From contig NZ_JBBEOG010000007.1 in NCBI RefSeq assembly GCF_037860835.1, positions 62,001 through 126,000 on the forward strand: 64,000 bases of DNA, in the 5' to 3' direction. The translations under genes and the position numbers were made by a program. Below the pieces are notes generated by a model. That model ran no database searches. It saw nothing but the letters and a program-made list of their open reading frames with translations, and had not been told where the DNA came from. This stretch comes from Aquipuribacter nitratireducens. GTDB taxonomy: Bacteria; Actinomycetota; Actinomycetes; Actinomycetales; JBBAYJ01. Of the stretch, positions 41,645 to 50,824 are shown piece after piece. The first letter of the stretch is position 1. The number at the start of each line of letters is the position of its first letter.

Positions 41645-42091
41645 TCAGGCTCCCGGCGTCGCCTCGTGGCCGGGGCGGCCGCGCGTGCGCTCCCGCTCCT
41701 TCATCCGCGCCTCGAGCAGGTGCCGGCGCCCGTCGGCCAGCTCCTCCCGGGCGGTCCGCTCCCACGCGCGGAAGCGGGACCAGTAGCCGTCGTCGTACTC
41801 CTCGACGACCTGGAACGTCCACCGCCCGTCGAGGACGTTGCGGCCGAGCAGGTCCTCGCGGACCCGCGCGGCGAGGTCGTCGTGGCCGGCCTCCTCCAGC
41901 GCCTCGAGGGCCTCGCCGAGCTGGATGTCGGCCCGGCCGGACAGCCGGTGGAACTCGTAGAGGTGGCCGCGTGCGACCTCGACCGCCTCCAGCGCCTCGC
42001 TGAGCGCGCCCAGGGCGTCGACCGTCGCGTCGGACACGCCGGGAAGGTCGCGACGGGCGTCCCCCGCGTCCCCGACGTCGCCCGCGCTCAC
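41645..42091 (-). CDS. Conserved helical protein of unknown function
   Basis: A 148-residue cytoplasmic protein. After an acidic N-terminus it is predicted helical: ATVDALGALSEALEAVEVARGHLYEFHRLSG, then ADIQLGEALEALEEAGH, then the distinctive NVLDGRWTFQVVEEYDDGYW, and a basic end (LLEARMKERERTRGRPG). I recall similar actinobacterial hypothetical proteins but no function. The GTG at 42091 overlaps the stop of the PPOX gene by 4 bases, so they are co-translated. It converges on the zinc peptidase gene with only seven bases between. Confidence 0.8.
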   Translation of the reverse strand: MSAGDVGDAGDARRDLPGVSDATVDALGALSEALEAVEVARGHLYEFHRLSGRADIQLGEALEALEEAGHDDLAARVREDLLGRNVLDGRWTFQVVEEYDDGYWSRFRAWERTAREELADGRRHLLEARMKERERTRGRPGHEATPGA

Positions 42092-42513
42092 GCGCTCCTC
42101 GGCAGCATGCCGTACGCGTGCTCGGGCCGGACCCGCAGGAGGAGCCGGCGCTCGCGCACCATCTCCCGGCGGTAGTCGTCCCAGTCGGGGTGCTCCCCGG
42201 CGGCGTCGCGGTAGTAGCCGACGAGCGCCTCGACGGTCGCGTCGCCCGGGTCGGCCGCGACGGGGGTGAGCTCGGCGGTGCCGTCGATGACGACGTAGCT
42301 CCAGAAGTCGGGAGCGCTCACGTGGAGGCTCACGCGCGCGTCCCGGCGGGCGTTGCGCGTCTTCGCGCGGTCGTCGGTCACGGACACCACGAGGCAGCCG
42401 TCCTGCACGACGTGCATGACGTTGGACGACTGCGGTCGACCGTCGCGGCGCAGCGTCACGAGGACGCTGCGCCTGTGCTCGGTGGCGAACGCGAGGGCGG
42501 TCGGGAGCTCCAC
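42088..42513 (-). CDS. PPOX-class (probable F420-dependent) oxidoreductase
   Basis: A split-barrel flavin-type protein of 141 residues: FATEHRRSVLVTLRRDGRPQSSNVMHVV is the strand pair that holds the cofactor phosphate, then DDRAKTRNARRDARVSLHVS, YVVIDGTAEL and the C-terminal RLLLRVRPEHAYGM. The subfamily with this pattern usually binds F420 rather than FMN, and actinomycetes make F420, but the assignment is by resemblance. GTG 42513 is the start, and the downstream helical protein gene overlaps its stop. Possible roles are reduction of quinones or xenobiotics. Confidence 0.87.
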   Translation of the reverse strand: MELPTALAFATEHRRSVLVTLRRDGRPQSSNVMHVVQDGCLVVSVTDDRAKTRNARRDARVSLHVSAPDFWSYVVIDGTAELTPVAADPGDATVEALVGYYRDAAGEHPDWDDYRREMVRERRLLLRVRPEHAYGMLPRSA

Positions 42514-42574
42514 CCCCCCATCCTCCGGTCGGCCGTGCGTCGCCGCACCCGCGGGAACCGTCGGTGCCCGGGCC

Positions 42575-42580
42575 TACCGT
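42575..42580 (+). promoter_or_regulatory. Leaderless -10 hexamer for the DUF1905 gene
   Basis: TACCGT ends 7 bases before GTG 42588. Confidence 0.45.
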
Positions 42581-42587
42581 CCGGGGC

Positions 42588-42911
42588 GTGGCGGTGGAGC
42601 TCGCGGTCAGCGGTGAGGTGGAGCGGCTGCTCGGCGGCAGCGGGTGGCACGTGGTCCACCTCGACGCCGCGGAGTCGGCCGGGCTGGCGCCGCTCGGACG
42701 GCGCCGACGCGGGTTCGTCGCGGTGCAGGCCCGGCTCGGCACCACGACGTGGCGGTCGTCGCTCATGCCGAGCGGGGACGGGCGCCTGTTCGTCGCGCTC
42801 CCCGCGCACGTCCGGAGCGCGGAGGACGTGGAGGAGGGGGACACGGTCACGGTGCGCGTCCGGCTCGACCCGGCACGCCACGCCGTCGGCGCAGGCCCCC
42901 GCCGCTGGTAG
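42588..42911 (+). CDS. DUF1905 domain protein
   Basis: A 107-residue protein that is one DUF1905 beta-barrel: VELAVSGEVERLLGGSGWHVVHLD at the start, then RGFVAVQARLGTTTWRSSLMPSG, DGRLFVALPAHVRSAEDVEEGD and TVTVRVRLD at the end. The order and the W-x-SS-L-P motif fit the family, whose members have no established function. GTG 42588 was preferred to GTG 42564 because the domain and a -10-like hexamer fit it. It stands alone ahead of the lipoprotein gene. Confidence 0.83.
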   Translation: MAVELAVSGEVERLLGGSGWHVVHLDAAESAGLAPLGRRRRGFVAVQARLGTTTWRSSLMPSGDGRLFVALPAHVRSAEDVEEGDTVTVRVRLDPARHAVGAGPRRW

Positions 42912-42917
42912 CGCGCC

Positions 42918-42923
42918 TACGCT
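42918..42923 (+). promoter_or_regulatory. Leaderless -10 hexamer for the jelly-roll lipoprotein gene
   Basis: TACGCT ends 6 bases before GTG 42930. Confidence 0.45.
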
Positions 42924-42929
42924 GCGTCC

Positions 42930-43769
42930 GTGCGCGCTGCGTTCCGTCACGTCGTCCCCGTGGTGGCCGGTGCCGCCGTCCTCGGTCTCGCGGCCTGCAC
43001 CGGGACCGGCGGGGACCTCGTGCCGGACAGCCCCGGCAGCCCGGCCGGGACCACACCCGTCGCCACGGGCGCGGCGTCCGGCGCCGCGGCGGGGTCCCCG
43101 GCGCCGACGGACGGGCGCGCCACCGCGCGCGTCCTCGACGACTTCGCCGACCTCCCGGCCTCGGGGCTCGACGACGACGGCACGCCCGTGGGGCTGCAGG
43201 TCTTCGGGTCGCCCGACGCGGTCGTCGAGGTCGACGCCGTGACCCCGCCCGAGCCGCGTCCCGGCACCGGCGACGCCGCCGGGTCCGCGCTGGAGGTCAC
43301 CGTGACGACAGCCGAGCACGGCGGTGTCGTGCGGGTCCTCGGCGACGGCGGCTCCTGGCAGCCGGTCGACGCCACGGACTCGACCGGCCTCGGGCTGTGG
43401 TTCCTCGGCACGGGGTCGGGCGAGGTGTGGTTCGTCGACCTGCTCGACAACCGCTCCGAGGGGTCGGAGGTCGACGACGCCGGGCGCTGGACGGCGTACT
43501 TCACCGACGACACCCCCGGCTGGCGACGGCTCGCCTGGGGCTGGGACGAGCTCGAGAGGAAGGACGTCGGCAACGGGGCCCCCGACGACGGGCTCACCCT
43601 CGAGGCGGTCACCGGCTGGGCCCTCGGGGTGCTCGACACCGGTGGGGACCCGGTCACGGCGTACGTCGACGACGTCGCCCTGCTCGCCGCCGGCGGGACG
43701 GACGCACCGGCCCCACCGCGGCCGGCGCCCGCCGCGAGCCCGGACTCCACGGCGTCGGCCGCACCGTGA
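42930..43769 (+). CDS. Lipoprotein with a carbohydrate-binding-like jelly-roll domain
   Basis: A 279-residue exported lipoprotein: signal and lipobox LAAC (Cys23), a Gly/Ala/Pro-rich linker to about residue 70, then a beta domain beginning RVLDDFADLP. Strands such as GGVVRVLGDGGSWQPVDATD, GLGLWFLGTGSGEVWFVDLL, WTAYFTDDTPGWRRLAWGWD and a final VTAYVDDVALLAAGG give the shape of CBM11/CIA30-type sugar-binding jelly rolls. This is by resemblance only. The C-terminus is a Pro/Ala tail. It precedes the GH26-like glycosidase gene by 218 bases, so both may act on the same glycan at the cell surface. Confidence 0.72.
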   Translation: MRAAFRHVVPVVAGAAVLGLAACTGTGGDLVPDSPGSPAGTTPVATGAASGAAAGSPAPTDGRATARVLDDFADLPASGLDDDGTPVGLQVFGSPDAVVEVDAVTPPEPRPGTGDAAGSALEVTVTTAEHGGVVRVLGDGGSWQPVDATDSTGLGLWFLGTGSGEVWFVDLLDNRSEGSEVDDAGRWTAYFTDDTPGWRRLAWGWDELERKDVGNGAPDDGLTLEAVTGWALGVLDTGGDPVTAYVDDVALLAAGGTDAPAPPRPAPAASPDSTASAAP

Positions 43770-43987
43770 CGCCCTCGCGAGGTGCCGTGACGCGTCGCGC
43801 GTCCGGCGCAGCGGCCGGGTCACCCGCGCAGGCTCACCGGCACACGCGCAGCGTGTCCGCCGCCACCGCCGGGCCAGCGCCCCACCCCGAGGTGCACGGA
43901 CGGCGACGCGCGACGCCCGCGCAGGTGGCGGGCGGTCTGCCGGGTCGGTCGATGCTGTGACGGGGGGCGGGTGACGATGCCCCTGAC
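43770..43987 (+). other. Intergenic region before the GH26-like gene
   Basis: 218 bases with no convincing gene. It includes a small perfect hairpin (CACGCGCAGCGTG) near 43842 and G-rich runs before the GTG at 43988. No promoter could be placed with confidence. Confidence 0.4.
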
Positions 43988-45178
43988 GTGCCGCAGTCCC
44001 ACCCGTCCCGCTCCCGTGCGCCCGGCGGGCCCCGTGTCGGCGTCACGCTCCTCCTCGCCGTCGTCACCGTCGTCGTGACGCTCGTCGCCACGCCCCTCAC
44101 CGGGACGCTCCTCACGAGCGCCGAGGCCGCCCGGCGGCTGCCCGGCGCGACGCGGACGGCTGCCGGTGGCGCGACCGCCGCGACCGGCGCGACGGAGTGG
44201 ACGACCCGTGCGGTCCGCACGACCACGTCCGTCGGCCGCAAGAGGCCGGCACCGAGCCCGACCCCGAGCCCTACGCCCACGCCCACCCCGAGCCCCACCC
44301 CCACGCCCGGCCCGACCCGCATGGCGTTCGGCGTGTCCGTCCCGGGCGGTCCCACCGCGCACGCGGAGCTCGACGAGGTCGCCCGCCTCGTCGGCGAGCA
44401 GCCCGGCATCGTCCTGTCGTACGTCGACTTCACCCGACCGCTGCCGGTCGCCGAGCTCGACGCCGTGCGTGCCCGCGGCGCGGTGCCCGTGGTCACGTGG
44501 GAGCCGTGGGCCGCCGGCGCGGGCGTCGCGCAGCCGACGTACTCCCTCGCGCGTATCGCCGGCGGCGACCACGACGCCCACATCCGGGCCTTCGCCCGCG
44601 ACCTCGCCGCCTGGACGACCGCGAACCGCCAGGGCGTCCGGCTGCGCTTCGCCCACGAGATGAACGGCGACTGGTACCCGTGGGCCGAGCAGGTCAACGG
44701 CAACCGGTCGGGCGACTACGTCCGCGCGTGGCGGCACGTCCACACCCTCGTCGAGGCGTCCGGCGCCGACGTGGAGTGGGTGTGGAGCCCCAACGTGCCC
44801 TACCCGGGCTCGGCCCCGGTGGCGGGGCTGTACCCCGGGTCCGCGTACGTCGACGTCGTCGCCCTCGACGGCTACAACTGGGGCACGAGCCAGTCGTGGT
44901 CGAGCTGGCAGCAGCCCCAGGAGCTGCTGGGTCCCGGTCTCGCCGAGCTGCGGGCGGTCGCCCCGGGCACGCCGGTCCTCGTGGCCGAGACCGCGTCCGC
45001 CGAGCAGGGCGGCGACAAGGCCGCGTGGGCCGCGGAGCTCGTCCGCTACCTCGACGCGCAGCCCGACGTCGTCGGTCTCGTGTGGTTCTCCCACGACAAG
45101 GAGGCCGACTGGCGGATCGACAGCAGCCCCGCGGTCCCGACCGCGCTGCGTGCCGCCCTCGCGGCCCGGCAGGGCTGA
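43988..45178 (+). CDS. Secreted GH26-like glycoside hydrolase (mannanase family)
   Basis: A 396-residue exported enzyme. A signal-anchor helix (about 17-47) is followed by a proline/threonine linker (SPTPTPTPSPTPTPG, about 90-108) and a TIM barrel. The probable acid/base Glu is in RFAHEMNGDWYPWAEQ and the nucleophile Glu in VLVAETASAEQGG, the arrangement of GH26 beta-mannanases and related endoglucanases. EWVWSPNVPYPGS and VDVVALDGYNWG also fit. The linker points to display on or beyond the cell wall. The GTG at 43988 gives a basic N-terminus. The sigma-28-like promoter of the next operon begins 19 bases after its stop. Confidence 0.83.
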   Translation: MPQSHPSRSRAPGGPRVGVTLLLAVVTVVVTLVATPLTGTLLTSAEAARRLPGATRTAAGGATAATGATEWTTRAVRTTTSVGRKRPAPSPTPSPTPTPTPSPTPTPGPTRMAFGVSVPGGPTAHAELDEVARLVGEQPGIVLSYVDFTRPLPVAELDAVRARGAVPVVTWEPWAAGAGVAQPTYSLARIAGGDHDAHIRAFARDLAAWTTANRQGVRLRFAHEMNGDWYPWAEQVNGNRSGDYVRAWRHVHTLVEASGADVEWVWSPNVPYPGSAPVAGLYPGSAYVDVVALDGYNWGTSQSWSSWQQPQELLGPGLAELRAVAPGTPVLVAETASAEQGGDKAAWAAELVRYLDAQPDVVGLVWFSHDKEADWRIDSSPAVPTALRAALAARQG

Positions 45179-45197
45179 GCCGGGTCACCTGTTCGGC

Positions 45198-45225
45198 TCA
45201 AGCGCCGTCCCCTGCCATCCGATAC
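45198..45225 (+). promoter_or_regulatory. Sigma-28-like promoter of the partner-switch/glycosyltransferase operon
   Basis: TCAA (45198-45201), 16 bases, TCCGATAC (45218-45225). Versus TAAA-N15-GCCGATAA it matches three of four at -35 and six of eight at -10, with one extra base of spacing. The first gene starts at 45299 after a 70-base leader with an AGGAGG ribosome-binding site. Confidence 0.58.
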
Positions 45226-45298
45226 CTCGCACGGCGGCGTACCTCTGTCGCCGTCCAGGTTCCACGGTCGGAGCCGAGCAGCAGGAGGACCCGCCGCG

Positions 45299-46507
45299 AT
45301 GACGAGAACGACGGACCCGGTCGACGTCGACGAGGAGGCGCGGGTGCGCGCGCTCCGGGCCCTCGACGTGCTCGACACGCCCGAGGAGGACCGCTTCGAC
45401 CGCGTGACGCGCCTCGCCGCCGGCCTCTTCGGGGTGCCGATGGCCGCCGTCACGCTGCTGGACCGCGACCGGCAGTTCTTCAAGTCCGCGCAGGGCCTCA
45501 CGGCCGGTGCGAGCACCCCGCGCTCCGACGCCATCTGCGACGCGACGATCCAGGGCCCCGGCACGCTCGTCGTGGAGGACCTCGCGGCGGACGACCGGTT
45601 CGCCGACAACCGCTGGGTGGTCGGCGACCCCCGCGCCCGCTTCTACGCCGGGCACCCGCTGGAGACCGCGGACGGCCAGCGTGTCGGCACCCTCTGCATC
45701 CTCGACGACCGGCCCCGGTCCCTGAGCGCCGGCGAGGAGTCGCTGCTCCGGGACCTCGCGATGTGGGTCCAGCAGGAGCTCACCACCGACCGCGAGATCG
45801 GCCGGGCGGCCGCCGTGCAGCAGGGTCTGCTGCCCCGCCGCCCGCCGGTGCTGCCCGGCTACGACCTCGCCGCCGCGTGCCTGCCGTCGCGCGGGGTCGG
45901 CGGCGACTTCTACGACTGGTACTCCCTGCCGGGGACGGGACTGGGACGCGTCGCCCTGTCCGTCGTCGACGTCATGGGAAAGGGGCTGGCCGCCGCCATC
46001 ATCACGGCGACCGTCCGGGCCGTCCTGCGGAGCACCGCCCGCGCCGGCGGCCCGGCGGTCGCCCTCGACGTCGCCGCCGAGGCGCTCGCGGCCGACCTCG
46101 ACCACGCCGCGACGTTCGTCACCGCCTTCCACGCCCACCTCGACCCCGCCACCGGGCTCGTCCGGTACGCCGACGCCGGGCACGGCCTCGCGATGGTCGT
46201 GCGCGTGGACGGGGGCGTCGAGCGGCTGCGCTCCGACGACCTGCCCCTCGGTGTCGGGGCCGGGCTCACCGACGGCTTCCGGCCGCACAGCGTCGCGCTC
46301 GGGCCGGGTGACACGCTCGTGGCGTGCAGCGACGGGGTCCTCGACCTCTTCGACGGCACCCTGGCCGCCCTCGCCGACGTCGAGACCCTCGTGCGCTCGT
46401 CGGCGGAGGCCGCCGAGGTCGTCGCGCGCGTCTCGCGCCTCGCCCACCGCCGGACCCCGCCCGACGACGTCACGGTCGTCGTCGTGCGTCGGCAGGCCGG
46501 GGCGTGA
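45299..46507 (+). CDS. GAF-PP2C (SpoIIE/RsbU-type) serine phosphatase
   Basis: A 402-residue regulator that should dephosphorylate the STAS antagonist encoded two genes later. The GAF domain (about 25-165) has ALDVLDTPEEDRFDRVTRLA and PLETADGQRVGTLCILDD. The phosphatase domain (about 185-400) has the metal-binding Asp in GVGGDFYDWY and VVDVMGKG, then YADAGHGLAMVV, VACSDGVLDLFD and PDDVTVVVV. All metal residues are kept, so it is probably active. ATG 45299 has AGGAGG nearby. The stop overlaps the glycosyltransferase start by 4 bases. The ligand of the GAF domain is unknown. Confidence 0.93.
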   Translation: MTRTTDPVDVDEEARVRALRALDVLDTPEEDRFDRVTRLAAGLFGVPMAAVTLLDRDRQFFKSAQGLTAGASTPRSDAICDATIQGPGTLVVEDLAADDRFADNRWVVGDPRARFYAGHPLETADGQRVGTLCILDDRPRSLSAGEESLLRDLAMWVQQELTTDREIGRAAAVQQGLLPRRPPVLPGYDLAAACLPSRGVGGDFYDWYSLPGTGLGRVALSVVDVMGKGLAAAIITATVRAVLRSTARAGGPAVALDVAAEALAADLDHAATFVTAFHAHLDPATGLVRYADAGHGLAMVVRVDGGVERLRSDDLPLGVGAGLTDGFRPHSVALGPGDTLVACSDGVLDLFDGTLAALADVETLVRSSAEAAEVVARVSRLAHRRTPPDDVTVVVVRRQAGA

Positions 46508-48555
46508 GCGGCAGCCTCCCGCTCGACACCACGGCGCGGGGCCCGCTCACGGGACGGCTCCTGCTCGTCCGGGCCCTCGTCGTCCTCACCCTCCTGCTCG
46601 GCACCTCCTACGTCGTGTGGCGGTGGGGGTGGTCGGTGCCGTGGGAGGTGTGGTGGATCGCCGTGCCGCTCGTCGTCGCCGAGACCTACAGCCTCGTCGA
46701 CGCGTGGCTGTTCGGTGTGACGGCGTGGCGGCTGAAGCAGCGCGGCGACGCCCCGCCCGCCCCCGCGGGCGTGAGCGTCGACGTCCTCATCACGACGTAC
46801 AACGAGGACGTCGAGCTCGTCATGACGACCGCGCTCGCGGCGCAGCGGATCCGCTACCCCCACCGCACGTACGTCCTCGACGACGGCAACCGGCCCGAGA
46901 TGCGGTCGGCGGCCGAGGCGGCCGGCGTCGGGTACATCACCCGCAGCGAGGACTGGGTCGGCAAGCAGCGCCACGCGAAGGCCGGCAACCTCAACAACGC
47001 GCTGTTCGCCACCGACGGCGAGCTCATGCTCGTCCTCGACGCCGACCAGGTGCCGGCACCGGAGATCCTCGACCGCACGATCGGCTGGTTCGACGACCCG
47101 CGGGTCGCGCTCGTCCAGACCCCGCAGTACTTCACCAACGTCACCGACGCCGACCCCTTCGGCGTGCAGGCGCCCCTGTTCTACGGGCCCATCCAGCAGG
47201 GCAAGGACGGGTGGAACGCGGCGTTCTTCTGCGGCTCCAACGCGGTCCTGCGACGCGAGGCGCTCATGCAGATCGGTGTCGTCGGCTACGTCCGGCAGCT
47301 CGACCGGGCCGTTCGCGACGCCCTGCGCACCGCCGACCGCGTGCTCGCCCGCGCGGTGCGCGAGGCACGCCGGGACCCCGGCGCCGCCACGACCCTCCGG
47401 GCCCTCACGAGCGTCCGGGACGCTGCCGCCCGCGCGCGGCGACGGCTCGACGCGGGCGAGCCGGCCGGTGAGGTGACGTACGACTTCCAGCGGGCGGTCG
47501 ACGCCGCTGCGCGGGACGTCGTCGCCGACGACGTCGCCGCCCTCGAGGCGGACCTGCGCGCCATCGCCGAGATGGGCGTCGGCGCGGGCCGGCACCGCGG
47601 CGGGGGACCCGGCATCGCGATCGACGAGGAGATCGGCGAGGCGGTCGTCGACGAGGCCGCCCTCGAGCGGCTCGCCGCGCGGGAGTGGTCCCCGCTCGGG
47701 GCGCTGGAGTCCGTGCGCGCGGTCGTGCGGGCCGTCGACGTCGACCGGGCCGACGAGGCCCAGCCCGTCATGCCGATGGCGACGATCTCCGTGACGGAGG
47801 ACATGGCGACCGCCATGCGGCTGCACGCCCTCGGCTGGCGCTCGGTGTACCACCACGAGGTGCTCGCCCACGGCCTCGCGCCGGAGGACCTCGGGACGAT
47901 GCTCACCCAGCGGCTGCGCTGGGCGCAGGGGACGCTGCAGGTGATGCTGCGGGAGAACCCCCTCGTCCAGCGGGGTCTCTCGCTCGGCCAGAAGCTCATG
48001 TACTCCGCGACGATGTGGACGTACCTGTCGGGCTTCTTCGCCCTCGTCTACATCGCCGCGCCGGTGCTGTACCTGTGCGTCGGCGTGCAGCCGGTCGAGG
48101 CGTACAGCGTCGAGTTCTTCGCCCGGCTCCTGCCGTTCCTCGTCGTCAACCAGCTGCTGTTCGCCGTCGTCGGGCGCGGCATCCGCACGTGGCGCGGCCA
48201 GCAGTACTCCCTCGCCCTCTTCCCCCTGTGGATCACGGCGTGCGCGACGGCCGTGGGGAACGTCTTCTTCGGTCGGGGGCTCGGCTTCGCCGTCACCCCG
48301 AAGAACCGGCAGGCGGTCGACCGGCCGCGCTGGGACCTCGTGCGCTGGCAGCTCGTCGCGGTCGGGCTGCTCGTGGTGTCCGTCGTCGTCGGGGTGACAC
48401 GCTGGGCGCTCGGCGCCGCACCGGCGCTGGGCACGTGGGTGAACGTCGCCTGGGTGGTGTACGACCTGTTCCTGCTGAGCGTGCTGTTCCGGGCGGCCAC
48501 CTTCCGCCCCGCCGACGACCCCGACACCGCGACCACCGAAGGAGCCTCCCGCTGA
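46504..48555 (+). CDS. Cellulose-synthase-like GT2 glycosyltransferase with a large catalytic-domain insert
   Basis: Membrane processive glycosyltransferase of 683 residues, expected to polymerise an NDP-sugar and move the chain across the membrane. Two N-terminal helices precede the GT-A domain: DVLITTYNED, LDDGNRPE (Asp126-127), LVLDADQV (DAD 179-181), then TED (431-433) and QRLRW (469-473), followed by about five C-terminal helices. Between GSNAVLRREALMQIG and ATISVTEDMATA, normally about ten residues apart, lies an extra helical, charged segment of about 168 residues (259-426). No PilZ domain is seen, so c-di-GMP control as in BcsA would need a partner. It overlaps both neighbours (4 and 1 bases). 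The polymer could be cellulose or another glucan. Confidence 0.9.
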   Translation: MSGSLPLDTTARGPLTGRLLLVRALVVLTLLLGTSYVVWRWGWSVPWEVWWIAVPLVVAETYSLVDAWLFGVTAWRLKQRGDAPPAPAGVSVDVLITTYNEDVELVMTTALAAQRIRYPHRTYVLDDGNRPEMRSAAEAAGVGYITRSEDWVGKQRHAKAGNLNNALFATDGELMLVLDADQVPAPEILDRTIGWFDDPRVALVQTPQYFTNVTDADPFGVQAPLFYGPIQQGKDGWNAAFFCGSNAVLRREALMQIGVVGYVRQLDRAVRDALRTADRVLARAVREARRDPGAATTLRALTSVRDAAARARRRLDAGEPAGEVTYDFQRAVDAAARDVVADDVAALEADLRAIAEMGVGAGRHRGGGPGIAIDEEIGEAVVDEAALERLAAREWSPLGALESVRAVVRAVDVDRADEAQPVMPMATISVTEDMATAMRLHALGWRSVYHHEVLAHGLAPEDLGTMLTQRLRWAQGTLQVMLRENPLVQRGLSLGQKLMYSATMWTYLSGFFALVYIAAPVLYLCVGVQPVEAYSVEFFARLLPFLVVNQLLFAVVGRGIRTWRGQQYSLALFPLWITACATAVGNVFFGRGLGFAVTPKNRQAVDRPRWDLVRWQLVAVGLLVVSVVVGVTRWALGAAPALGTWVNVAWVVYDLFLLSVLFRAATFRPADDPDTATTEGASR

Positions 48556-48887
48556 TGGACATCGGGACCACCCGCACCGACGACGGCCTCGTGGTGGTGA
48601 GCCCCGTGGGGCGGCTCACGATGGTGTCGGCGCCGCAGCTGCGCGCGGTCGTGACCGCGTGCGTCACGACCGGCGACGCCCGCGTCGTCGTCGACATGTC
48701 CGCGGTCGAGTTCATCGACTCCTCCGGCCTGGGCGCCCTCGTCGCCGGCCTCAAGGCCGCTCGGCAGGGGGGCGGCGACCTCCGCATCGCCCGTCTGGCG
48801 CCCCAGGTGCTCACGGTCCTGCAGCTGACGAACCTCGACCGGGTCATGCGTCCGTACGCGTCGGTCGAGGAGGCCTTCGGTGGCTGA
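48555..48887 (+). CDS. STAS-domain anti-sigma factor antagonist
   Basis: A 110-residue RsbV/SpoIIAA-like protein. The phospho-acceptor Ser is in MSAVEFIDSSGLGALVAGLK, and the C-terminal VLTVLQLTNLDRVMRPYASV completes the fold. In such systems the unphosphorylated form binds the HATPase kinase and releases its target, and the PP2C phosphatase resets it. All three components are present here. ATG 48555 shares its first base with the stop of the glycosyltransferase (TGATG), placing the antagonist in translational lockstep with the enzyme. No sigma factor is adjacent, so the final target may be something else. Confidence 0.93.
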   Translation: MDIGTTRTDDGLVVVSPVGRLTMVSAPQLRAVVTACVTTGDARVVVDMSAVEFIDSSGLGALVAGLKAARQGGGDLRIARLAPQVLTVLQLTNLDRVMRPYASVEEAFGG

Positions 48888-48911
48888 GCCCGCCCGACCG
48901 GGTGGGACCGC

Positions 48912-49346
48912 GTGAGCCGGGCGGACGGCTCGCGCTCGCTCGTCACCGTCACCGACGCGGAGAGCCTCGGACGCGTCCACGAGCTGCTGGCGGGCCTGTG
49001 GCGGGACCGGCCCGAGGTGCCGGACGAGGACCGGATCGCACTGGAGACCGCCCTCGCGGAGCTCGTCGCCAACGCCGTGGAGCACGCGAGCCCCGGTCTG
49101 CCGGTGCCGATGGACATCGCCGTCGAGTGCTGGCCGGACCGGCTCGAGGCCGTCCTCCGCGACTCGGGCGTGCCGCTGCCCGCGGCCGCGCTCGCGGTCC
49201 TCACCGCCGCCGAGCCACCGGAGGTCGACCCGCTCGCGGAGAGCGGGCGGGGGCTGCTGCTCGTCCGGCTCACGATGGACGAGGTGACGTACTCCCGCGG
49301 CGCCGACGACCGCAACGTCTGGCGGCTCGTGCGTCGGCGTCGCTGA
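48912..49346 (+). CDS. RsbW-like HATPase serine kinase/anti-sigma protein
   Basis: A 144-residue single HATPase domain. The N box is ETALAELVANAVEHASPG, the G1 loop is LRDSGVPLP and the G2 loop is ESGRGLLLVRLTMDEVTY, so ATP binding is likely. It should phosphorylate the STAS protein encoded just upstream and sequester a partner. GTG 48912 is 24 bases after the STAS stop. Typical RsbW proteins hold a sigma factor, but none is encoded in the operon. The ECF factor at 49805 has its own promoter and lacks the sigma-B features such kinases bind. The gene ends facing a convergent DUF3140 gene. Confidence 0.9.
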   Translation: MSRADGSRSLVTVTDAESLGRVHELLAGLWRDRPEVPDEDRIALETALAELVANAVEHASPGLPVPMDIAVECWPDRLEAVLRDSGVPLPAAALAVLTAAEPPEVDPLAESGRGLLLVRLTMDEVTYSRGADDRNVWRLVRRRR

Positions 49347-49352
49347 CGCGTC

Positions 49353-49721
49353 TCAGCCGCCCCGCGGCGGCTGCAGCGGGTCGTGCCCGATCGTCATGAG
49401 CTCGTGGCGCCACGCCGCGTCGCCGGCCGTGGGCTCGAGGTCCTCGCGCCGCTGCGCGGTGACGCGGTCGACGACCCGGGCCATGGTCGTGACGTCGGCC
49501 TCGTCGAGGTCGGTCTTCCGCCGACCGAGGATGCGGAGCACGTGCTGGCCCGTCGACAGCCCCGGCATGTGGCCGGTCTCGTCGAGGAACGCCTCGGCGT
49601 CCTCGTCGGCGGCGCGCACCCGCAGCCAGTCGGACAGGTCCTTGCTCGTCATGTTGACGACGGTGTGGAACTGCTCCCACAGCTCGTCGAGCTCGTGGTC
49701 GTCGAGGTCGTGGCGTGGCAT
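49353..49721 (-). CDS. DUF3140 protein
   Basis: A 122-residue acidic, soluble protein of the DUF3140 family: DELWEQFHTVVNMTSKDLSDWL, then AEAFLDETGHMPGLSTGQHVL, LGRRKTDLDEADVTTMARVVD and WRHELMTIGHDP. These blocks are the conserved core, whose function is unknown. It is often found in actinomycetes and some link it to DNA-binding proteins, without direct proof. ATG 49721 has a GGAGG site 4 bases upstream. A GC-rich hairpin (49354-49373) lies in its last codons and probably ends the convergent operon too. Confidence 0.88.
   Translation of the reverse strand: MPRHDLDDHELDELWEQFHTVVNMTSKDLSDWLRVRAADEDAEAFLDETGHMPGLSTGQHVLRILGRRKTDLDEADVTTMARVVDRVTAQRREDLEPTAGDAAWRHELMTIGHDPLQPPRGG
49354..49373. 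terminator. Hairpin at the convergent ends of the HATPase and DUF3140 genes
   Basis: CAGCCGCC, loop CCGC, GGCGGCTG: a perfect 8-bp stem in the last codons of the DUF3140 gene, eight bases after the HATPase stop. Confidence 0.6.
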
Positions 49722-49792
49722 GCCTCCAGCCGTACCCGGTCCGCGGTGCCGCCATGCCCGTCGGGGGCTCCCGGAGCGTCGGCCCCCGGGTC

Positions 49793-49798
49793 TACCGT
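49793..49798 (+). promoter_or_regulatory. Leaderless -10 hexamer for the ECF sigma gene
   Basis: TACCGT ends 6 bases before ATG 49805. Confidence 0.45.
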
Positions 49799-49804
49799 CG
49801 CGCC

Positions 49805-50824
49805 ATGACGCAGGTGCTCGACGCCGACACCGACCTCGACGCCTTCCGCGGCGAGCTCACCGGCTACTGCTACCGCATGCTCGGCTCCCTGCACGACGCG
49901 GAGGACGCCGTCCAGGACACGCTGGTGCGGGCGTGGCGGGCCGCCGAGCGGTTCGAGGGGCGCTCGAGCGTGCGGTCGTGGCTGTACCGGATCGCGACGA
50001 ACGTCTGCATCGACGCCATCGGCAGCCGTTCCCGCCGGGCGACGCCACTGGAGATCGGCGGGCCGTCGGCGCCGGTCGAGACCTCGCTCGCCGACGTGCG
50101 GGCGCACGAGGAGTGGCTGGAGCCCCTGCCGTGGGGGACCGCCACCCAGGACCTCGCCGCCGACCCGGCCGAGATCACCGCGGAGCGGGAGAGCGTCCGG
50201 CTCGCGTTCGTCGCGGCCCTCCAGCACCTGCCGGCCCGCCAGCGGGCCGTCCTCATCCTCCGCGACGTGCTGCGCTGGCGCGCCGACGAGGTCGCCGCCC
50301 TGCTGGGCGTCAGCACCGCCTCGGCCAACAGCCTTCTCCAGCGCGCCCGCGCGACCCTCGCCCAGCACCACCCGGACGACGCCCGACCGCTCGACCCGCT
50401 CGACGCCCGGCACCAGGCCCTCCTCGAGCGCTACCTCGACGCGTTCGAGCGATACGACATCGACGCCTTCGTCGCCCTCCTCCACGCCGACGCCACGCAG
50501 AACATGCCGCCGTTCGCCATGTGGCTGCGCGGCGCCGACGACATCGGGGCGTGGATGACCGGACCCGGCCACGGCTGCCGGGGCTCGCGCCTGGTGCCGA
50601 CGCGCGGCGCCAACGGCAGCGCGGCCGTCGCCCAGTACCGCCGGGCGGACCCGGACGACGAGACCGCCGGCCACGTGCCGTGGGCCGTCCACGTCCTCGA
50701 GGTGAGCGACGGGCGGGTCGGCAGCATCACGTCGTTCCTCGACACCCGGCTCTTCGCCGCCTTCGGCCTGCCCGACTCGCTGCCGCACGGGGCGCCGCTC
50801 CCCCGGCCCGCCGACGGCGCATGA
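49805..50824 (+). CDS. ECF sigma factor with SnoaL-like C-terminal domain (SigG-type)
   Basis: A 339-residue RNA polymerase sigma factor. Region 2 is LTGYCYRMLGSLHDAEDAVQDTLVRAWRAAERFEG, with VRSWLYRIATNVCIDAI, and region 4 is LQHLPARQRAVLILRDVLRW then ADEVAALLGVSTASANSLLQRARATL. A C-terminal SnoaL-like fold (about 205-325: LLERYLDAFERYDIDAFVALLHADATQNMPP and on) replaces an anti-sigma factor, as in the group of SigG/SigJ-like factors. That domain probably senses a ligand or gates DNA binding. ATG 49805 is behind a leaderless-type hexamer. It is divergent from DUF3140. Confidence 0.93.
   Translation: MTQVLDADTDLDAFRGELTGYCYRMLGSLHDAEDAVQDTLVRAWRAAERFEGRSSVRSWLYRIATNVCIDAIGSRSRRATPLEIGGPSAPVETSLADVRAHEEWLEPLPWGTATQDLAADPAEITAERESVRLAFVAALQHLPARQRAVLILRDVLRWRADEVAALLGVSTASANSLLQRARATLAQHHPDDARPLDPLDARHQALLERYLDAFERYDIDAFVALLHADATQNMPPFAMWLRGADDIGAWMTGPGHGCRGSRLVPTRGANGSAAVAQYRRADPDDETAGHVPWAVHVLEVSDGRVGSITSFLDTRLFAAFGLPDSLPHGAPLPRPADGA

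Follow-up and report, generated by a model that had tools for sequence, protein, structure and literature searches.

The window analysed here, a 64,000 nt stretch of the Aquipuribacter nitratireducens genome (contig NZ_JBBEOG010000007.1, positions 62,001–126,000), contains a four-gene unit in which a BcsA-like polysaccharide synthase is embedded among the genes of an RsbU/RsbV/RsbW-type partner switch. The evidence makes it reasonably probable that this switch is free of a sigma factor and that its output is the synthase itself, which would be gated after translation. In the Bacillus sigma-B scheme, RsbU, RsbV and RsbW form a partner switch acting on sigma-B; the unit resembles this system in having a PP2C phosphatase, a phospho-serine STAS protein and a GHKL kinase encoded together. 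All four genes lie on the forward strand. The first (45299–46507) codes for an RsbU-like serine phosphatase with a GAF domain (Pfam, 50 bits) and a SpoIIE-type (PP2C) domain (118 bits). It is followed by the gene for a 683-residue glycosyltransferase family 2 (GT2) synthase that lacks PilZ (46504–48555, GTG start at 46504; Cellulose_synt 69 bits, Glycos_transf_2 62 bits), by that for an RsbV-like STAS protein (48555–48887, ATG start at 48555; 75 bits) whose predicted phospho-acceptor, Ser56, is encoded at 48720–48722, and by that for an RsbW-like serine kinase (48912–49346, GTG start at 48912; HATPase_c_2, 64 bits). Pfam and NCBIfam agreed on the family calls for the window proteins. A preliminary description of this DNA had given the order GAF-PP2C, GT2, STAS, HATPase, with overlaps of 4 bases (PP2C/synthase) and 1 base (synthase/STAS) and a gap of 24 bases before the HATPase gene, all of which is exact. 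It had also stated that the unit contains no sigma factor gene, and none was found within it on reading the DNA or with Pfam. According to Pfam and NCBIfam, an extracytoplasmic function (ECF)-type sigma gene with a SnoaL_2 domain (49715–50824, forward strand; TIGR02960, 404 bits) lies outside the unit, 0.4 kb downstream, with an opposite-strand DUF3140 gene in between.

Motifs and a structure model show the synthase to be BcsA-like, predicted to be catalytically intact, without PilZ and with an inserted helical region next to the TED motif. The DDG, DxD, TED and QxxRW motifs and the gating-loop FxVTxK were invariant in all 86 synthase loci compared. The window synthase scored 353 bits against the CelA model TIGR03030, under the cut-off of 699. 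A structure model predicted from 68 sequences (predicted local distance difference test score, pLDDT, 82; predicted template modelling score, pTM, 0.80) gave an alignment of 482 residues with BcsA of E. coli at 2.6 Å (Z 30.8); the catalytic motifs and the fold are both those of BcsA. The aligned range ended before the PilZ domain (residue 699 in E. coli BcsA, 581 in the cyclic di-GMP (c-di-GMP)-bound BcsA 4p00), a domain scan found PilZ in none of 68 synthase relatives, and the model has only 17 residues beyond its last long helix. The window synthase thus differs from BcsA in lacking PilZ, in having a long insert before TED and in adjoining a partner switch; no BcsB was present among the ten window proteins scanned. 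The extra domain mentioned in the preliminary description is real, comprises 170 residues between LRREALMQ and TISVTED (residues 257–426; 47272–47781, forward strand), and is also present in relatives (median 156 residues over the 86 loci). This insert is the proposed docking site of the switch. It was modelled as three long helices (residues 251–289, 295–316 and 321–358), with pLDDT values of 84–96 in ten-residue blocks from 251 to 350, and low to middling values from about residue 350 to the TED motif. Pfam run on the insert alone returned a single match, under its cut-off, and a weak TraB/PrgY/gumN match was seen in 13 of 68 synthases (best 1.4e-4). A fold search with the whole model was filled by matches to the synthase core, leaving the insert fold neither matched nor denied.

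The loci compared came from a scan of named genome contigs, in which the best 80 of 463 relatives were kept; with the window and five further genome stretches they make up the 86 loci. Because of this selection, the sample is weighted towards close relatives and towards Arthrobacter/Pseudarthrobacter. Neighbours were counted within 7.5 kb of the synthase. All four genes occurred together at 81 loci; at L012, L042, L060 and L074 the full switch was not nearby, and at L023 the stretch stopped right after the synthase. The preliminary description had proposed that the gene order be looked for in other actinomycetes, its absence in relatives being named as a refutation; the order was kept, exactly so in 73 of the 86 loci. 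Eight other loci (L032, L045, L048, L051, L057, L076, L077 and L084) had the complete set with a different order or orientation, which indicates that the synthase–switch association outlasts rearrangement. After merging synthases less than 12% divergent, 51 of the 81 loci remained. At 66 of the 78 loci measured, the STAS start as placed by the model lay before the synthase gene had ended. Judged by these sequences, the four-gene layout is not due to chance.

In the genomes sampled, the synthase is rare and scattered: it was found in five of 99 genomes of the order, the source genome included, both same-genus genomes lacking it, and in two of 396 genomes (again including the source genome) drawn evenly from the phylum. 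The reciprocal test, in which a model of 25 STAS proteins was run over the 99 genomes of the order, gave STAS scores of 153–175 bits in exactly the five synthase genomes, each time directly behind the synthase; the next best score was 99 bits. The conserved order and content, and the occurrence of this STAS subfamily in just those of the 99 genomes that have the synthase, support what the preliminary description had put forward as a possibility, namely that the synthase, through its extra domain, is the switched target. The source genome contains a second STAS–HATPase pair (L118, 6187–7525, contig C5), which is generic; its STAS scored 91–95 bits against the synthase-linked models. Phage records yielded five weak matches.

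Of 96 PP2C frames, 48 were scanned, and all of these contained the SpoIIE domain; their sensor domains were GAF in 33, a response-regulator receiver in nine and PAS in a few. The input of the switch looks modular and its output constant. The phospho-acceptor Ser56 was present in the STAS proteins of all 81 loci. In the HATPases, the N-box Glu, Asn and His were likewise kept at all 81 loci, and the G2-box GRG at 80–81 of them. The G1-box Asp was replaced by Ala in 32 of the 81 HATPases, including those at 29 named loci, all of Arthrobacter, Pseudarthrobacter or another Micrococcaceae; its loss while the N- and G2-boxes are kept is puzzling in an ATP-binding kinase. No scored reading frame combined two of the five families. 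At L019 (8792–10010, Serinicoccus chungangensis) the PP2C match was split over two frames, reflecting either a frameshift or a sequencing error. L107 (9657–11437) coded for PP2C, STAS and HATPase proteins with a synthase remnant of about 73 residues between PP2C and STAS, which may be what is left of a synthase within a switch that is still intact.

Plasmid records contained synthase relatives at up to 41% identity. A Sphingobium synthase used as query retrieved 17 plasmid records, of which 13 were examined; the other four (H84, H91, H94 and H96) were from species already covered. PP2C, STAS and HATPase genes were present in the stretch at all 13 proteobacterial loci; for 12, the switch annotations stand in the records, and for the Vibrio locus they rest on Pfam and profile matches. 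In most of them the switch genes form a PP2C–STAS–HATPase run, with genes for OpgC or an acyltransferase and for DUF3131 proteins close by; the distance from the synthase to STAS and HATPase was about 7 kb in Paracoccus liaowanqingii. The proteobacterial synthases had an insert of 53–57 residues from RREA to (T/S)ED (read by pattern in 12 of the 13, by alignment in the thirteenth), at the place occupied by the actinobacterial insert. In a Nostoc relative, genes for STAS and PP2C were close to that of the synthase, and the same 18-kb stretch gave a weaker HATPase match (46.5 bits). PilZ was found in none of the five synthases scanned (four proteobacterial and that of Nostoc), and the phospho-acceptor Ser was present in all 13 aligned STAS proteins (12 proteobacterial, one from Nostoc). 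As controls, 11 stretches were used, comprising BcsA, curdlan-type and HlyD-linked synthases (nine annotated; the HlyD-linked ones presumably BgsA-like) and two unannotated relatives. Since plasmid gene tables are incomplete, the controls were rechecked by profile search, with profiles built partly from the positive loci themselves; none of the 11 stretches gave a STAS or PP2C match, and a single one (L187) gave a weak HATPase match (28 bits). The gap before TED could be read by pattern in seven of the nine control synthases (L188 has SED; L185 showed no pattern) and was 11 residues in these seven, and PilZ was detected in five of the eight scanned at E 0.001, four of them over the cut-off. 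The presence of the triad beside PilZ-less, insert-bearing proteobacterial synthases further supports the synthase as target. The plasmid clusters L167, L169 and L172–L181 consist of the switch, OpgC or an acyltransferase, the synthase and DUF3131; among the literature matches listed, no paper combined DUF3131 with the other cluster terms.

Several known systems bear a likeness to the unit. In the syp locus of Vibrio fischeri, SypA, the target of which is unknown, promotes biofilm formation when unphosphorylated (PMC8256260, PMC4517449). SypE/SypA is similar in that a STAS protein stands under a serine kinase and a phosphatase, the outcome being control of an exopolysaccharide-dependent biofilm (PMC8256260, PMC4517449). 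However, SypE combines kinase and phosphatase in a single protein and belongs to a locus of 18 genes, whereas here three separate proteins accompany one BcsA-like synthase with an insert. SiaABCD and HsbA–HsbD of Pseudomonas provide cases of a partner-switch protein acting on an enzyme, as proposed here (PMC8457831, PMC5085249), and SiaC binds the helical stalk of SiaD (PMC8457831); the enzyme in those systems is a diguanylate cyclase, while here it would be a synthase. HmpUVW of Nostoc punctiforme is a partner switch described without a sigma factor, from a locus for motility and polysaccharide, with HmpV thought to be active when dephosphorylated; its target is unknown and the available text reports no synthase partner there, in contrast to the synthase-linked switch described here (PMC8256260). 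BgsA, the mixed-linkage glucan synthase of Sinorhizobium, is also BcsA-like and devoid of PilZ, but it binds c-di-GMP via a C-terminal domain of its own (PMC5567048); such a cytoplasmic domain is absent from the model of the window synthase, which has a switch. The four-gene layout was not described in any of the literature matches listed, in a search whose coverage excluded preprints and most subscription journals.

In the mechanism proposed, the kinase would phosphorylate Ser56 and thereby keep STAS off. A signal sensed by the GAF domain (a receiver domain in other loci) would lead the phosphatase to strip this phosphate, and the free STAS, which probably docks on the helical insert, would render the synthase active, taking the role played by c-di-GMP and PilZ in BcsA. 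Activation is the sign proposed because of the SypA and SiaC precedents. Several observations weigh against this reading. At L042, L060 and L074 the synthase carries the insert with no STAS or kinase nearby. In the genomes of L042 and L060 other synthase copies adjoin STAS and HATPase; in that of L074 neither of two copies does (the rest of the genome was not searched for a switch), and a partial PP2C match lies about 6.4 kb past the synthase, outside the 7.5-kb counting distance. The Nostoc synthase (L164, 7878–9863) has an extra stretch of about 100 residues between DDG and DxD, not before TED. The G1-box Asp of the HATPase, which the window and 42 of the 81 loci retain, is missing in 39, which makes kinase activity at these loci uncertain. 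Finally, partial correlations over the 81 loci were 0.48 between insert and STAS, 0.47 between insert and kinase and 0.08 between insert and PP2C; with equal-length core segments of the synthase as the control, the values for the insert in the 51 non-redundant loci (0.41 with STAS, 0.40 with kinase) were barely above those of the best core segment (0.38 and 0.31), and covariation was therefore not taken as evidence.

The HATPase might instead bind the insert as an anti-synthase, to be pulled off by unphosphorylated STAS as in RsbV/RsbW/sigma-B. This is the classical wiring of a partner switch, and it agrees with the nearly equal covariation of kinase and STAS with the insert. The kinase, however, is less conserved than STAS (mean identity, 0.40 versus 0.58), and it is STAS, not the kinase, that remains beside the synthase in L122–L124. 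These three loci, of one genus, code for a divergent synthase with an insert of 114 residues (read in L012, which is the same gene as L122) without the conserved sequence RDWSPLGALESV. Ala takes the place of the phospho-Ser in the STAS encoded behind this synthase, and no kinase or phosphatase match was found in the stretch (20 kb for one locus, about 5 kb for two). The persistence of a non-phosphorylatable STAS beside this synthase, in what is a single lineage, points to STAS rather than the kinase as the docking partner, and we regard the anti-synthase wiring as unlikely.

Sigma factors are the usual partners of RsbW-type kinases, and the switch could gate one encoded elsewhere, the synthase being merely co-transcribed or among the regulated genes. 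The genome of the window has two factors above the SigBFG cut-off. A search for Sigma70 region 3 in 30 synthase-bearing genomes gave more than one match in 24, where a sigma target may exist. In the other six (Microbacterium kunmingense, Microbacterium SORGH_AS_1204, Arthrobacter H5 and Bz4, Serinicoccus chungangensis and S. sediminis) the single match was the primary factor. The SigBFG model likewise matched, at full length, only the primary factor in these six (130–132 bits), but found factors of 197–213 bits in four comparison genomes. A sigma-B/F-type factor was therefore not found in six of the 30, although assemblies may be incomplete, with genes on missing contigs, and an ECF factor might serve instead (short region-4 matches of ECF type, 20–36 bits, occur in the six). 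Together with the lack of a sigma gene within it, this sets the unit apart from RsbU/RsbV/RsbW, the place of the sigma factor being taken by the synthase; the six genomes also support the synthase as target. Further, no sigma gene family recurred beside the operon in 30 neighbourhoods, and the STAS subfamily never occurred without the synthase in the 99 genomes. Gating of a sigma factor is thus rather improbable. Least probable, to the point of being hardly expected, is that the switch gates a diguanylate cyclase whose c-di-GMP then acts on the synthase. Partner switches that target a cyclase exist (PMC8457831, PMC5085249), and the example of BgsA makes clear that c-di-GMP can be bound by a synthase devoid of PilZ (PMC5567048). 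Yet no cyclase was present among the ten window proteins scanned (42088–50824; genome-wide cyclases were not searched), and neither the synthase relatives, devoid of PilZ, nor the short end of the window synthase model favours such a route.

The tie between partner switch and synthase, seen in several bacterial phyla, suggests that some bacteria gate sugar-polymer synthesis by such a switch instead of the usual c-di-GMP. We further propose, tentatively and as something that could easily turn out either way, that this is a second general way of gating processive GT2 synthases, sigma-free and based on a phospho-controlled STAS docking on a helical insertion next to the active site, found in Actinomycetota, Pseudomonadota and at one Cyanobacteriota locus. 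The control of cellulose-type synthases is known mostly via c-di-GMP; a partner switch on a PilZ-less synthase would, if confirmed, be a direct phosphorylation-based alternative. It would also provide SypA- and Hmp-like biofilm switches with the kind of target still missing for them, and the four-gene system would make it possible to test a question of long standing, namely what the targets of SypA and other biofilm STAS proteins are. An RsbV/RsbW pair would then no longer imply a sigma factor, which would affect the annotation of many genomes.

Two genes upstream of the unit, on the same strand, may be related to its product. A secreted protein with weak CBM11 similarity (42930–43769; CBM_11, 17.6 bits against a cut-off of 27), whose membership of the unit is uncertain, gave no PDB match, and its gene was seen at one locus only. 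Directly upstream of the unit lies the gene for a GH26 glycoside hydrolase (43988–45178; Pfam, 43 bits), possibly an accessory enzyme for the polymer; the preliminary description had made no mention of it. Clusters recurring in the flanks of at least four of 30 loci were GH26, frames antisense to GH26, a GH26-like set and an ATP-binding cassette (ABC) ATPase; the latter two were each identified from a single member. At 13 of the 86 loci, GH26 matches above 400 bits lay no more than 7.5 kb from the synthase. The best PDB match of the window GH26 was Endoglucanase H (156 bits), compared with 37 bits for the top-scoring mannanase. A beta-glucan is the probable product of the synthase. Since the closest match, Endoglucanase H, is an entry we take to be the lichenase CtLic26A, a mixed-linkage (1,3;1,4) glucan is possible, and would be our guess from the type of GH26.

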